Source: Rickettsiales bacterium (GTDB lineage: Bacteria > Pseudomonadota > Alphaproteobacteria > Methylaequorales > Methylaequoraceae). From it: a stretch of DNA of 47,923 nt. How positions within the stretch are numbered: position 1 is the first letter of the stretch; each line of letters starts with the position of its first letter. Where the stretch lies: positions 1-47,923 of the forward strand of contig JAOOJU010000004.1 of assembly GCA_028407765.1 (NCBI GenBank). Reading direction: 5' to 3'. Shown piece after piece: positions 4,853 through 47,923 of the stretch. The notes under the pieces are model-generated. The model worked only from the letters and a program-made list of their open reading frames with translations, had not been told where the DNA came from and searched no databases. The translations under genes and the position numbers were made by a program.

Positions 4853-5971
4853 TTAATTTTTTAAATCATCCCAAAAATCTCTAACTTTTGAAAAAAAGCC
4901 ACTTCCTTCTGGATTATTATTATGACCAGATTCTTCACCAAAGTCTCTAAGAATTTCTTTTTGCCTTTCAGAGAGATTTGTCGGTGTTTCTACAATCAAT
5001 GAGATTATCATATCTCCAAATGAAGTTGATCTTAAAGCAGGCATTCCTTTTCCTGATAATCTTAATTGATCACCTGTTTGAGTCCCGTTTGGAATCTTTA
5101 CTTTTGCTCTTCCTCCTGAAACAGTAGGGACTTCCACTGCACCCCCTAAACTCGCTTCTACGATTGAAATAGGAACATTACAGAATATATTGGTTCCATC
5201 CCTTTCAAATAACGAGTGTGGCTCAATATTTACAAATAAATATAAGTCTCCAGGTTGAGAGCCATTTTGTCCTGCTGCACCTTCACCTGACAATCTAATC
5301 CTACTCCCGTCATCAACACCTGTTGGAATACTAACTTCTATTTTCCTATTCTTTCTTTTCCTTCCCTCTCCCGAACAACCATCACATGGATCGGTAATCA
5401 TCTGGCCAGATCCTCCACAACTGGGGCATGTTCTCTCAACAGTAAAAAAACCTTGTGAAGCCCTAGTCCTTCCCGTTCCTCCACATGTTCCACAATTACT
5501 TACTCCTTGTGCATTCTCCGATCCAGTACCTCGACATTGTTCACATGTTATTAGTGTCTCATAAGAAATTTCCTTTTTTACACCAAGATATGCTTCTCTC
5601 AGATCAATAGAAATCTCATATTTTAAGTCTTGCCCTCTTTCTTGCCTTGGAGATCTTCCTGAGACATCACCAAAAAAGTCCTCAAAGATATCTGAAAAGC
5701 TTCCAAAACCTTCCGATGAAAATCCTCCACCACCAGATTGGGAGGCATTGAAGGCGTCATGTCCATATTGATCATAGGCTGATTTTTTTTCTGGGTTTGA
5801 CAAAACTTCATATGCTTCAGAAACATCTTTAAACTTTTTTTCTGCAGATTTATCTCCCGGATTTCTATCTGGATGATATTTCATAGCTAATTTTCTGTAT
5901 GCGCTCTTGAGAGTTCCACTATCAACAGAGCGGTCGACTCCTAATAGTTCATAAAAATCTTGTTTAGCCAT
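4853..5971 (-). CDS. dnaJ: Chaperone DnaJ (Hsp40)
   Basis: 372 residues, a full-length type I Hsp40 that delivers unfolded substrates to DnaK and stimulates its ATPase. The J domain covers residues 1-70 with HPD at 33-35. A Gly/Phe-rich linker spans about 79-105. Four CxxCxGxG zinc-binding repeats begin at cysteines 143, 160, 182 and 196, all intact. The C-terminal substrate-binding beta domains follow. The start lies 7 bp after the dnaK stop, and no strong Shine-Dalgarno is visible next to it, suggesting coupling to dnaK translation. Confidence 0.98.
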   Translation of the reverse strand: MAKQDFYELLGVDRSVDSGTLKSAYRKLAMKYHPDRNPGDKSAEKKFKDVSEAYEVLSNPEKKSAYDQYGHDAFNASQSGGGGFSSEGFGSFSDIFEDFFGDVSGRSPRQERGQDLKYEISIDLREAYLGVKKEISYETLITCEQCRGTGSENAQGVSNCGTCGGTGRTRASQGFFTVERTCPSCGGSGQMITDPCDGCSGEGRKRKNRKIEVSIPTGVDDGSRIRLSGEGAAGQNGSQPGDLYLFVNIEPHSLFERDGTNIFCNVPISIVEASLGGAVEVPTVSGGRAKVKIPNGTQTGDQLRLSGKGMPALRSTSFGDMIISLIVETPTNLSERQKEILRDFGEESGHNNNPEGSGFFSKVRDFWDDLKN

Positions 5972-5978
5972 TTAATAT

Positions 5979-7973
5979 TTAAGCCGAGGTTCCTGTTGAT
6001 TTATCATCATCTTTCTTTTTACTTTTTGTATCAGTAACATCTTCAAAGTCTGCATCAACCACTTTTGCATCTTTATCTTTACCTTTAGCCTTGGTCTTAG
6101 ACTTTGCAGATTTACTGGACTGTGAATTATCAGAAGCATTTTTTTCTTTCTCAGCTTTTTCCTGAGCCTCTTTATAAAGAATTTCTCCAAGTTTCATGGA
6201 ACTTTGAACTAATGCATCTGTTTTTTCTTTTAGTATCTTTACATCTGCTTTCTCATCTTCTAATAGTTTTTTTAGTTCTTCCAAAGATTTTTCAATTTTT
6301 TCTTTATCTTCTTTTGGTAGCTTTTCTCCATGGTCCTTGAGATTTTTTTCTGTACTAACAACGATGGAGTCAGCATTATTTCGGGCTTCTATAGATTCAA
6401 GTTTTTGTTTATCAGCCTCTGCATTTGCTTCAGCATCCTTAACCATTTTTTCAATTTCTTCGTCAGATAATCCTCCAGATGCTTTAATCTGAATCTGATG
6501 CTCTTTACCAGTTGCTTTATCTTTTGCAGAAACTTTAACAATACCATTAGCATCAATATCAAAAGTAACTTCAACTTGCGGTGTGCCCCTTGCAGCGGGA
6601 GGTATTCCAACTAAATCAAATTGACCCAAAAGTTTATTATCAGCTGCAATTTGTCTCTCACCTTGAAATACTCTAATTGTAACAGCCGATTGATTATCTT
6701 CAGCTGTTGAAAAAATTTGGCTTTTATTAGTTGGGACCGTGGTATTTTTTTCAATAAGTTTTGTGAAAACCCCACCAAGTGTCTCTATTCCCAAAGATAA
6801 AGGGGTAACATCTAAAAGAAGTACATCTTTTACATCTCCACTTAGAACTCCACCCTGAACAGCTGCACCTAGAGCAACAACCTCATCAGGATTCACACTT
6901 CTATTTGGGTCTCGCCCAAAGAAATTTTTAACTTGCTCTATAACTTTTGGCATTCTAGTCATTCCTCCAACCAGGATAACATCATTTATCTCGCCAGCAT
7001 TTAAACCTGCATCTTTGAGTGCTTTTTTACACGGTTCTATAGTTCTATCAATTAATTTAGAAACAAGCGCCTCAAATTTTGATCTTGATAATTTAATATT
7101 TAAATGTTTCGGGCCTGAAGCATCAGCAGTTATAAATGGTAAATTTACCTCCGTCTGTGGTGCCGTTGAAAGTTCAATTTTAGCCTTTTCTGCTGCCTCT
7201 TTTAGACGTTGGAGTGCCAATTTATCCTGCTTTAAATCTATTGACTGTTCTTTCTTAAATTCTTCAGCAAAGTAATCAATAAGTGTATTATCAAAGTCTT
7301 CGCCACCTAATTGCGTATCACCATTGGTAGCTTTAACCTCAAAAACACCATCTCCTATTTCAAGAATCGAAATATCAAATGTACCACCGCCTAGATCATA
7401 AACAGCAACTGTTCCTGTTTTTTTCTTATCAAGTCCATAAGCTAATGCTGCAGCTGTTGGTTCGTTTATTATTCTTTTAACATCAAGACCAGCAATTTTA
7501 CCTGCATCTTTAGTGGCCTGTCTTTGTGCATCATTAAAGTACGCTGGAACAGTTACTACTGCTTCTTTAACCGGCTTACCAAGATATTTCTCTGCAGTTT
7601 CTTTCATCTTTTGGAGAATCATTGCACTTATCTGGCTAGGGGAAAATTTTTGGTCATCAATGCCAACCCATGCATCTTGATTATCTCCAGCAACAATTTT
7701 ATATGGAAGTACTTCAGCATCTTTTTTGACAGATGCATCATTCATTCTTCTTCCTATAAGACGCTTAATTGCAAATAGTGTCTTTTCAGGGTTTGTAACA
7801 GATTGTCTTTTTGCTGGTTGACCAACAAGTTTCTCATCTCCGTCTGCAAATGCAACCATAGACGGTGTAGTTCTTGATCCTTCAACATTTTCGATTACTT
7901 TCGGTGATTTACCATCCATGATTGCAACACATGAATTGGTTGTACCAAGGTCAATGCCTATTATAGCGCTCAT
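5979..7973 (-). CDS. dnaK: Chaperone DnaK (Hsp70)
   Basis: 664 residues. The ATP-binding actin-like domain starts with [17 protein letters not shown], and the second phosphate loop [14 protein letters not shown] lies near residue 190. The linker '[18 protein letters not shown]' precedes the beta-sandwich peptide-binding domain. The helical lid is followed by a lysine/serine/aspartate-rich tail ending [10 protein letters not shown]. It works with DnaJ and GrpE, both adjacent. A strong AAGGAG Shine-Dalgarno sits just upstream of the ATG. Its leader carries one arm of a 38-bp inverted repeat shared with grpE, and a sigma70-like promoter lies in the 131-bp gap before it, so it can probably be transcribed separately from hrcA-grpE. 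Confidence 0.99.
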
Positions 7974-7994
7974 ATTAGCTCCTTTTCTTCCTTA

Positions 7995-8032
7995 AAATAT
8001 GGACAGAATCTTCTCATTAGCCCGATTTTGGC
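7995..8032 (+). repeat. Left arm of perfect 38-bp inverted repeat (dnaK leader)
   Basis: These 38 bases are the exact reverse complement of 8617-8654; I checked all 38 positions and both flanking mismatches. The arm lies in the non-coding gap between grpE and dnaK. It starts 22 bases upstream of the dnaK ATG, just outside the AAGGAG ribosome-binding site, and falls within the leader expected from the promoter proposed at 8056-8084. A core segment reads TTCTCATTAGCCCGATTTTG. Confidence 0.97.
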
Positions 8033-8055
8033 ACTATTAAGAAGAAGTTTACTAC

Positions 8056-8084
8056 TTATAATATATAATGATTATAAAAATCAA
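8056..8084 (-). promoter_or_regulatory. Candidate sigma70-type promoter of dnaK
   Basis: On the minus strand, TTGATT (8084-8079) is followed by a 17-base spacer and TTATAA (8061-8056). This is near the TTGACA/TATAAT consensus with ideal spacing. The -35 is preceded by CCC (CCCTTGAT), which also resembles alphaproteobacterial sigma32 -35 elements, so heat-shock control is possible. Transcription would begin near 8049 and give a leader of roughly 75 bases containing one arm of the inverted repeat. Confidence 0.45.
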
Positions 8085-8104
8085 GGGATATGTTAAATTT
8101 TTAA

Positions 8105-8752
8105 TTATTTCTTTTGTTTCCCTTTTGATACAACAACCATTGCTGGTCTTAAAAGTCTATCTGCAATCTTAAAACCTTGTTGTAACTCTTCAACAATTAA
8201 TCCTTCTTTAATTTCACTATTTATCTGAGAGACTGCTTGATGAAGATCAGGATCAAATTTTTTATTTACTGAAGAAAATGCTATAATACCATTTTTTTCA
8301 AATATATCATAGAATTCCTTTTCAATAGCCTTGATACCTTCGACAAGGTTTTGTATGCTCTGATTATCTTCTGAAATATCGTTTGGAATTGATTGCATCG
8401 CTCTTTGGAAATTATCAGCAATAGTCAAGAGTGAAAAAGCAAAGTTTTTAGAGGCATATTTCCTGCTTTCTTCTAATTCCCTGTGATGCCTTTTCCTTAA
8501 GTTTTCATTTTCAGCAAGGGTTCTCAATACTCTATCCTCTGTTTCTTTTAACTTTAATTTTAATTCTTCATAGTTTTTCTTTTCAATTTCAACTTTTTCT
8601 TTCTTAATATTTAAAGGCCAAAATCGGGCTAATGAGAAGATTCTGTCCATATTTGAATTTTTTAAGATTTCATCTTCCTTACTTATTACTTGTTCTTTTT
8701 CAATCTTTTTATCCACATTAGTTTTTACCTTTTGATCTTCTTCTTTGTTCAT
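8105..8752 (-). CDS. grpE: Nucleotide exchange factor GrpE
   Basis: 215 residues, slightly long for GrpE. It is the ADP/ATP exchange factor for DnaK and a dimer. A charged, disordered N-terminus (residues 1-34) leads into an odd aromatic stretch, MDRIFSLARFWP (35-46). That stretch is encoded by the right arm of the 38-bp inverted repeat. A coiled coil follows (about 55-100, with ENENLRKRHHRELEESRKYA). The C-terminal beta domain has 'FEKNGIIAFSS' and 'FDPDLHQAVSQ', then the conserved terminal 'QQGFKIADRLLRPAMVVVS'. It follows hrcA by 11 bp. The repeat-encoded residues look inserted or substituted relative to a usual acidic GrpE tail, but the frame is intact. Confidence 0.96.
   Translation of the reverse strand: MNKEEDQKVKTNVDKKIEKEQVISKEDEILKNSNMDRIFSLARFWPLNIKKEKVEIEKKNYEELKLKLKETEDRVLRTLAENENLRKRHHRELEESRKYASKNFAFSLLTIADNFQRAMQSIPNDISEDNQSIQNLVEGIKAIEKEFYDIFEKNGIIAFSSVNKKFDPDLHQAVSQINSEIKEGLIVEELQQGFKIADRLLRPAMVVVSKGKQKK
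8617..8654 (-). repeat. Right arm of perfect 38-bp inverted repeat (inside grpE)
   Basis: Exact reverse complement of 7995-8032. It lies wholly inside grpE, covering codons 33-46, and is read in frame without a stop. The two arms are separated by 584 bp (8033-8616). Neither flank extends the match (8655 pairs against 7994, and 8616 against 8033, both mismatched). Confidence 0.97.
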
Positions 8753-8763
8753 CTTGTTCTCCT

Positions 8764-9822
8764 TTAAATATTAAAACTTTTTCCTAATAGTTTTGCCGTG
8801 TAGTCAACTACTGGGATTATTTTAGCATAATTAATTCTCATGGGTCCAACCACACCAATTGCTCCGATTATTTCTTTATCTTTATTTTTAAATGGACTGA
8901 TTATAGTAGAGCACCCTGTCATACCAAAAAGATTATTTTCCGCACCAATAAAAATTTGAAGACCTTCTGCTTCTTGAGTTTCTTCTATGATGCCCATTAA
9001 ATTCTCTTTATTCTCAAGTCTTTCTATTAATATTCTAATATTCTCAAGTTGTTCTAATGCAGTTACATCCTCTAAAAGTTTTGAAGTACCTGTAACAATT
9101 AATTTATTTTTTTGGTTAACATCTGCCCAACAAGCTATACCTTGGTCAATGAGTCTCTTAGAAACTTTATCTAAATCTTTTCGATCATTTTTTATTTCAC
9201 CTTCAATGATTCGTTGACTCTCAGATAATGTTCTACCTCTTAATTTAGAATTTAAATAATTAGTTATTTCAATTAAAACTGAATTAGGAAGGCCTTTTGG
9301 AGTTTTAATTATTCTATTTTCAATTAATCCAGTTTCAGATACCATTATTACTAATGCTTTCTCAGTTCCAACTGGAACAAACTCTATGTGTTTCATCCCT
9401 CCCTCTAACTTTGGGGCTAAAACTAATCCTGCACAATCTGATAGCCCAGATAACATATGAATTGCATCATCATATATCTGGTCAAAACTCCTAGAATTTC
9501 CCAAAAATTTTTTTTTAATTTTTAGACATTCATTGTTGGATAACTTGCCAACTTGAAGTAATCCCTCTACAAAAAATTGCATGCCTAAATCTGTTGGCAC
9601 TCTTCCAGCTGATGAATGAGTTGAAGTCAGTAATCCAGCATCCTGTAGATCTGACATAACATTTCGTACTGAAGCTGGTGATAATTTTTCTTCTAACTTA
9701 GAGGATAATTTTCTTGAACCAACTGGATCTCCAGTATTAACATAATCATCAACTATAAGACTAAAGATTTCTTTTGAACGTCTATCAAGTTCTATTATTG
9801 GTGATGATTTTTTTTTCAACAT
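8764..9822 (-). CDS. hrcA: Heat-inducible transcription repressor HrcA
   Basis: 352 residues, full length. An N-terminal winged helix ('DDYVNTGDPVGSRKLS' and 'SPASVRNVMSDLQDAGLL') is followed by the conserved 'THSSAGRVPTDLG', then a GAF-like dimerisation domain. HrcA represses chaperone genes by binding CIRCE operators with GroEL as corepressor. It heads the hrcA-grpE-dnaK-dnaJ cluster, but no CIRCE element is visible before hrcA, grpE or dnaK, so its target may be groESL elsewhere. It is divergent from rph across 81 bp. Confidence 0.97.
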   Translation of the reverse strand: MLKKKSSPIIELDRRSKEIFSLIVDDYVNTGDPVGSRKLSSKLEEKLSPASVRNVMSDLQDAGLLTSTHSSAGRVPTDLGMQFFVEGLLQVGKLSNNECLKIKKKFLGNSRSFDQIYDDAIHMLSGLSDCAGLVLAPKLEGGMKHIEFVPVGTEKALVIMVSETGLIENRIIKTPKGLPNSVLIEITNYLNSKLRGRTLSESQRIIEGEIKNDRKDLDKVSKRLIDQGIACWADVNQKNKLIVTGTSKLLEDVTALEQLENIRILIERLENKENLMGIIEETQEAEGLQIFIGAENNLFGMTGCSTIISPFKNKDKEIIGAIGVVGPMRINYAKIIPVVDYTAKLLGKSFNI

Positions 9823-47864: not shown

Positions 47865-47923
47865 GCGGGAATAGCTCAGTGGTAGAGCATCACGTTGCCA
47901 ACGTGAGGGTCGCGAGTTCGAAT
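47865..47923 (+). tRNA. tRNA-Gly (anticodon GCC), 3'-truncated by window edge
   Basis: The first 59 bases of a tRNA. The acceptor 5' strand GCGGGAA is followed by a D-arm (GCTC...GAGC) and an anticodon stem TCACG/CGTGA enclosing TTGCCAA with the GCC anticodon at 47897-47899. The variable loop and the T-arm 5' half GCGAGTTCGAAT come next. The 3' end of the T-stem and acceptor strand lie beyond the window. It reads glycine codons GGC and GGU. Confidence 0.96.

Follow-up and report, generated by a model that had tools for sequence, protein, structure and literature searches.

The perfect 38-bp inverted repeat that joins the leader of dnaK to the coding region of grpE in this genome is probably a mutational scar, composed of a native, conserved dnaK leader RNA and a derived, template-switched copy of part of it within grpE. 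By comparison of the sequences, the two arms are of different age: the dnaK-side arm is native and ancestral, while the grpE-side arm is derived. A recent template-switch scar had been named in the preliminary description of this DNA as a fallback to a regulatory antisense pairing; it has become the best-supported reading, since the source of the copy is conserved in the order and the copy itself is missing from relatives.

The window (the whole stretch of 47,923 nucleotides that was analysed) carries hrcA (8764-9822, gene call), grpE (8105-8752; Pfam PF01025, 160 bits), dnaK (5979-7973; open reading frame with an Hsp70 N-terminus) and dnaJ (4853-5971, gene call) on its minus strand in that order, in agreement with the earlier gene calls, which had placed dnaK and grpE leftwards. 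The repeat was likewise confirmed: the bases at 7995-8032 match those at 8617-8654 exactly in reverse complement, with a spacer of 584 nt between the arms. Read on the minus strand, the dnaK-side arm (7995-8032) starts at the bulged G in hairpin I of the leader and takes in the entire UUCUGUCC strand of hairpin II, and the grpE-side arm (8617-8654), the derived inverted copy, codes for about NMDRIFSLARFWP of GrpE. Allowing one mismatch extends the repeat to 41 nt (7992-8032 / 8617-8657, 98%), and BLAST with a small gap lengthens it to 7992-8043 / 8601-8657 at 88% identity. The number of such perfect repeats that chance alone would produce in the window is about 5e-12. No third copy of either arm was detected by BLAST in the entire 1.13-Mb assembly; a mobile or multi-copy repeat is ruled out, as the genome carries just two copies. 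Search of the arm against viral contigs yielded no match. Furthermore, in 392 kb sampled from this genome and 400 kb from its relatives, no other local exact inverted repeat exceeded 17 bp; two short contigs in this survey, C3 and C4, came out as N and were uninformative. At the right-hand end of the window (47865-47923), the contig breaks off within a tRNA gene.

The source of the copy is a conserved, ROSE-like leader RNA of two hairpins (7971-8047, minus strand), which the covariance model R1 detects in the window with 59.3 bits (E 1.4e-12). Comparison of every family relative where dnaK was located beside grpE made the leader visible in each of them, arranged as a promoter-like CTTGAT...TATAATATAA, [U/C]GCC-loop-GGG, UUCUGUCCA, AGGAAGAAAAGGAGC and the dnaK start. 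The window has the corresponding promoter-like sequence, CTTGATT ... TATATTAT (8058-8085, minus strand), upstream of the leader, which on the basis of its conservation is a candidate RpoH- or sigma-70-like promoter; an rpoH gene is present in the genome. At the level of the order, R1 detects the leader in 26 of 32 genomes (E <= 8.1e-10), exactly those in which grpE was found, and it stands directly upstream of dnaK; a further copy, cut by a contig end, was detected in the genome G012. Outside the order, R1 detected no leader upstream of dnaK among 385 genomes sampled from the class (a few of which belong to the same order), and two weak matches were obtained, one preceding an Hsp20 gene (L061) and the other without a clear gene start (L060). 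No known Rfam family matched at the dnaK leader, and no match to the HrcA/CIRCE operator TTAGCACTC-N9-GAGTGCTAA with up to three mismatches was found within the window.

Hairpin I (8009-8045, minus strand) consists of a stem and a U-(bulged G)-CC / loop / GGG apex, as supported by covariation across the order and by the fold of the window sequence. Hairpin II (7985-8008, minus strand) pairs UUCU-[G]-UCC (8001-8008) with GGA-AGAA (7985-7991) over 7 bp with one bulged G, and the AAGGAG Shine-Dalgarno sequence of dnaK (7979-7984, minus strand), assigned by sequence, lies directly 3' of it. The consensus fold of 25 leaders contains 17 pairs. Hairpin I covaries strongly across the order, with 95.3% of cells paired overall and 72 cells with two-sided changes vs 27.6 in shuffles; the covariation score is 0.461 vs 0.155 for shuffled and at most 0.119 for slid alignments (0/500 shuffles). 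The window's own leader folds into the same two hairpins. As the stems change freely and yet stay paired, the conserved entity would be an RNA rather than a fixed DNA operator. The inner six pairs of hairpin II are invariant in the 25 sequences, so that covariation is silent on the pairing of this hairpin.

ROSE thermometers, best known from small heat-shock genes, comprise two to four hairpins, the 3' one of which pairs the Shine-Dalgarno sequence. The clearest second-rank matches of R1 sit directly before Hsp20 genes, and 18 of the Hsp20 leaders retrieved across the order, including the one of this genome (L095), bear UUGCU followed by AAGGAG, i.e., the ROSE motif. Built from dnaK leaders alone, with no hsp20 leader included, R1 matches 14 of these 18 leaders at the correct place and strand (E <= 0.004 in 58 kb). 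Hairpin I covaries in the hsp20 leaders also, in an alignment (A3) that was fitted to R1 and hence leans towards the R1 structure; a MAFFT alignment of the same leaders (A2) was left out of modelling, its GGG being out of register. Both types of leader have a common layout of hairpin II, namely 4 bp, a bulged G and 3 bp (UCUU-[G]-CUU with AAGGAGA in hsp20, UUCU-[G]-UCC with GGAAGAA in dnaK), and it is hairpin I, bulged G included, that is best conserved between them. The Rfam ROSE_2 model weakly matches two hsp20 leaders (25.2 and 23.1 vs a cut-off of 65 bits), and the Rfam ROSE models do not match at the dnaK leaders. The order's hsp20 leaders contain UUGCU or UCGCU; the U(U/C)GCU motif is not present in the dnaK leaders, which have UCUGUCC instead.

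The hsp20 leaders themselves deserve description. The ROSE-motif leader of this genome (L095:1308-1374, on G000:C7) combines UUGCU/AAGGAG with a [U/C]GCC-GGG hairpin, and the same kind of leader is found in L072-L079, L081-L085, L087, L089, L098 and L100, before one type of Hsp20 that mostly begins with MQN... In L072-L084 (L076 and L081, for instance), the MQN-type hsp20 genes have a TGACAT...ATGTCA dyad that coincides in part with their promoter-like sequence and is a possible operator, distinct from CIRCE. A second type of Hsp20 (MSRMSVFN... / MTRLSLFN...) follows the leaders L086, L088, L090-L094, L096, L097 and L099, which mostly display UCGCU near GAGGA along with a UGCUU...AAGG hairpin; these are probably a second ROSE-like form, which R1 barely detects (16 bits at best).

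Since a model of dnaK leaders alone retrieves 14 of the 18 ROSE-motif hsp20 leaders, the dnaK leader is probably a ROSE-like thermosensor, and its location in the 5' UTR of a heat-shock gene agrees with this class. It is not a canonical ROSE member, as it is without U(U/C)GCU and its paired strand lies just upstream of AAGGAG: of its two hairpins, hairpin II pairs the GGAAGAA beside the Shine-Dalgarno sequence, not AAGGAG itself. The leader would damp translation of dnaK when the cell is cool or unstressed and relax upon heating, a mode of action that we hold to be somewhat favoured. In computed folds, the GGAAGA of the dnaK leaders has an accessibility of 0.12 at 10 C, rising to 0.30 at 50 C, which resembles that of the hsp20 Shine-Dalgarno sequence (0.10 to 0.36). 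For the AAGGAG of dnaK, the value stays near one half at every temperature (0.42 at 10 C, 0.58 at 50 C), so its predicted gating is weaker than in the hsp20 leaders; such a leaky thermosensor would fit a chaperone that is required at all temperatures. The merely partial sequestration of the Shine-Dalgarno sequence in the computed folds counts in favour of the chief rival to a thermosensor, namely that the hairpins serve as a protein-binding or mRNA-stabilising element, for example as the site of an IbpA-type small heat-shock protein. This role gains from hairpin I and its bulged G being the most conserved part in common with the hsp20 leaders, and from IbpA of E. coli, which binds the ibpA 5' UTR (PMC10474464) and represses its own message through it. 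IbpA binding has, however, been demonstrated for gammaproteobacteria, and the invariant hairpin II, whose bulged G faces a purine strand, is built like the hairpin that senses temperature in ROSE elements; we treat protein binding or stabilisation as possible but tentative. This rival bears on the leader alone, and the repeat can be read as a scar in either case. The preliminary description's guess of a temperature dependence may prove correct by a route that it did not foresee, the dnaK arm being situated within a conserved two-hairpin leader related to the ROSE-type leaders of small heat-shock genes.

The grpE-side arm belongs to an in-frame insertion of 42 bp (14 codons; 8613-8654, minus strand) with ATATTT direct repeats at 8607-8612 and 8649-8654. 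GrpE of the window accordingly carries an extra DRIFSLARFWPLN-like segment, at which all aligned GrpE relatives have a gap (11-14 residues); the relatives compared include none of the same genus, and the sequence of grpE before the insertion is deduced from these more distant genomes. The insertion sits in the charged and variable N-terminal tail, just before the Pfam GrpE match that begins at residue 50, and forms the sole hydrophobic stretch of that tail (9-mer hydropathy of +0.88 vs at most -0.18 in relatives). The inserted RIFSLARFWPL (GrpE residues about 33-49), hydrophobic with arginines, is taken by us to resemble a DnaK-binding peptide, and by this analogy it might act as a pseudo-substrate in the tail of GrpE.

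The junctions of the insertion point to the manner in which it may have arisen. Its length is a multiple of three (14 x 3), it has ATATTT at either end, and TTCTTAATA (8601-8609, plus strand), a possible template-switch microhomology, adjoins the target as well as the source arm in the dnaK leader. One junction is thus marked by ATATTT and the other by TTCTTAATA followed by a few mismatched bases. The target has the plus-strand sequence TTCTTAATA-TTTAAAG-GCCAAAATCGGGCTAATGAGAAGATTCTGTCCATATTT-GAA; in the source, the sense strand of the leader has TTCTTAATA-GT-GCCAAAATCGGGCTAATGAGAAGATTCTGTCCATATTT-TAA. From these sequences, TTCTTAATA and the far-end ATATTT are plausible as switch points; at the left junction, with TTTAAAG in the target vs GT in the source, a single clean switch leaves bases unaccounted for. 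In the proposed course of events, a nascent strand in grpE would have moved over during replication to the complementary strand, some 0.6 kb distant, where 38 nt of the dnaK leader served as its template before it returned to grpE, leaving the 14 codons in the N-terminal tail of GrpE. The event would be placed in the lineage of this genome, and the antisense relation between grpE and dnaK would be a by-product, any regulatory effect of which would be incidental and lineage-specific. The distance between source and target exceeds that of most described short-range template switches. Local reverse-complement copies generated by template switching are an established class of mutation (PMC8794818), and a nearby source that is older and unchanged is available here, as the leader is conserved in the order and the copy does not occur in relatives.

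The main alternative for the origin of the copy is an assembly or amplification artefact, in which a chimeric product, as formed in multiple displacement amplification, was built into the contig. Chimeras of this amplification are mostly inverted, lie within 10 kb and are primed at short complementary stretches (PMC1855051), and at least one relative has an isolate name of the single-cell style (AG-896-A16). A chimera, however, yields one junction, and two would be needed here, the second leading back into grpE with the frame kept and no stop introduced; nor is there another such repeat across 392 kb of the assembly. We regard an artefact as unlikely and retain a template switch during replication as the preferred origin.

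The preliminary description had read the repeat as a regulatory antisense pair of grpE and dnaK, acting in cis within one transcript or in trans between two. The 38-bp RNA duplex would indeed be very stable, with a computed energy of -66.5 kcal/mol and a net gain of about 50 kcal/mol over the segments folded apart, and it would span the 3' half of hairpin I and the whole UUCUGUCC (anti-Shine-Dalgarno) strand, which makes an effect on dnaK physically possible. Pairing of the grpE RNA with these 38 nt of the leader could free the Shine-Dalgarno sequence or invite cleavage by RNase III, and the case for it includes the exact coverage of the closing strand of hairpin II by the arm and the perfect state of both arms. 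The relatives speak against it: none has the grpE arm, an outcome that the preliminary description had itself named as removing the regulatory reading, and the longest antisense matches between dnaK leader and grpE in 24 relatives measure 7-12 nt, which is chance length. A duplex in cis is not conserved either, for in 11 of the 24 relatives an unrelated, oppositely oriented gene of about 200 aa stands between grpE and dnaK; furthermore, dnaK has its own conserved promoter-like sequence, and ribosomes translating the grpE segment would hinder pairing. As the antisense relation is not conserved in relatives, selection for it is not shown, and conserved antisense regulation of grpE and dnaK is not supported by the sequences compared; a functional coupling of this kind appears highly improbable. 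About as improbable is a lineage-specific version, in which the insertion would have made the grpE message a perfect 38-nt antisense of the dnaK leader across its anti-Shine-Dalgarno strand, holding the thermosensor open or marking it for RNase III; if true, one mutational step would couple a chaperone and its exchange factor. The intervening gene of the relatives, AlkB-like by eye (HQD motif), is found in L009, L012, L013, L014, L016, L017, L023, L024 and L028-L030, and it is not located between grpE and dnaK in the window.

With the repeat read as a scar, its two halves are of separate interest. One local replication error can yield a long sense-antisense pair together with a new segment of 14 residues in a chaperone cofactor, and the length and perfection of an inverted repeat do not by themselves make it a conserved regulatory device. 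A ROSE-related leader conserved on dnaK throughout the order would mean that Hsp70, the central chaperone, can also be set by RNA structure, besides a sigma factor or a repressor, in a setting of small-genome, AT-rich alphaproteobacteria with few regulators. Full-text searches of open-licence literature brought up no thermometer on dnaK and no comparable dnaK leader, and a survey of Pelagibacter RNAs does not mention dnaK; the element is best filed as a ROSE-related leader on dnaK, new to the literature searched, with a function that is read from its sequence.

Among known systems, the leader stands closest in form to ROSE (Rfam ROSE_2, RF01832; the ROSE-like element of Pseudomonas ibpA, PMC3669281), with which it has in common the 5' UTR of a heat-shock gene, two hairpins and, after hairpin I, a weak 3' hairpin having a bulged G and a purine-rich partner strand at the ribosome site. 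It differs in serving dnaK instead of a small heat-shock gene, in having UCUGUCC in place of the U(U/C)GCU that lies opposite the Shine-Dalgarno sequence in the ROSE motif (PMC3669281), in pairing the GGAAGAA directly upstream of the Shine-Dalgarno sequence and not that sequence itself, and in matching no Rfam family. ROSE-G (PMC12857270) is a further ROSE variant with an altered anti-Shine-Dalgarno motif and a bulged G, but its motif is CUGCU, its bulged Gs oppose each other and it belongs to ABC transporter genes, whereas the leader described here has a single bulged G and UCUGUCC and belongs to dnaK. The enterobacterial PBC-38-1, proposed to bind protein (PMC11109978), is likewise a conserved structured motif upstream of dnaK; as compared by description only, it differs in being described only in Enterobacteriaceae, in lying in the dnaK-satP intergenic region and in overlapping the promoter. 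As for the copy in grpE, it resembles short-range template switches (PMC8794818) and the quasipalindrome mutations of E. coli (PMC7202029) in being a local reverse-complement copy with possible microhomology at its bounds, and it departs from short-range template switches in that its source lies about 0.6 kb off, that it forms an in-frame insertion in a coding sequence and that it copies part of a regulatory RNA.
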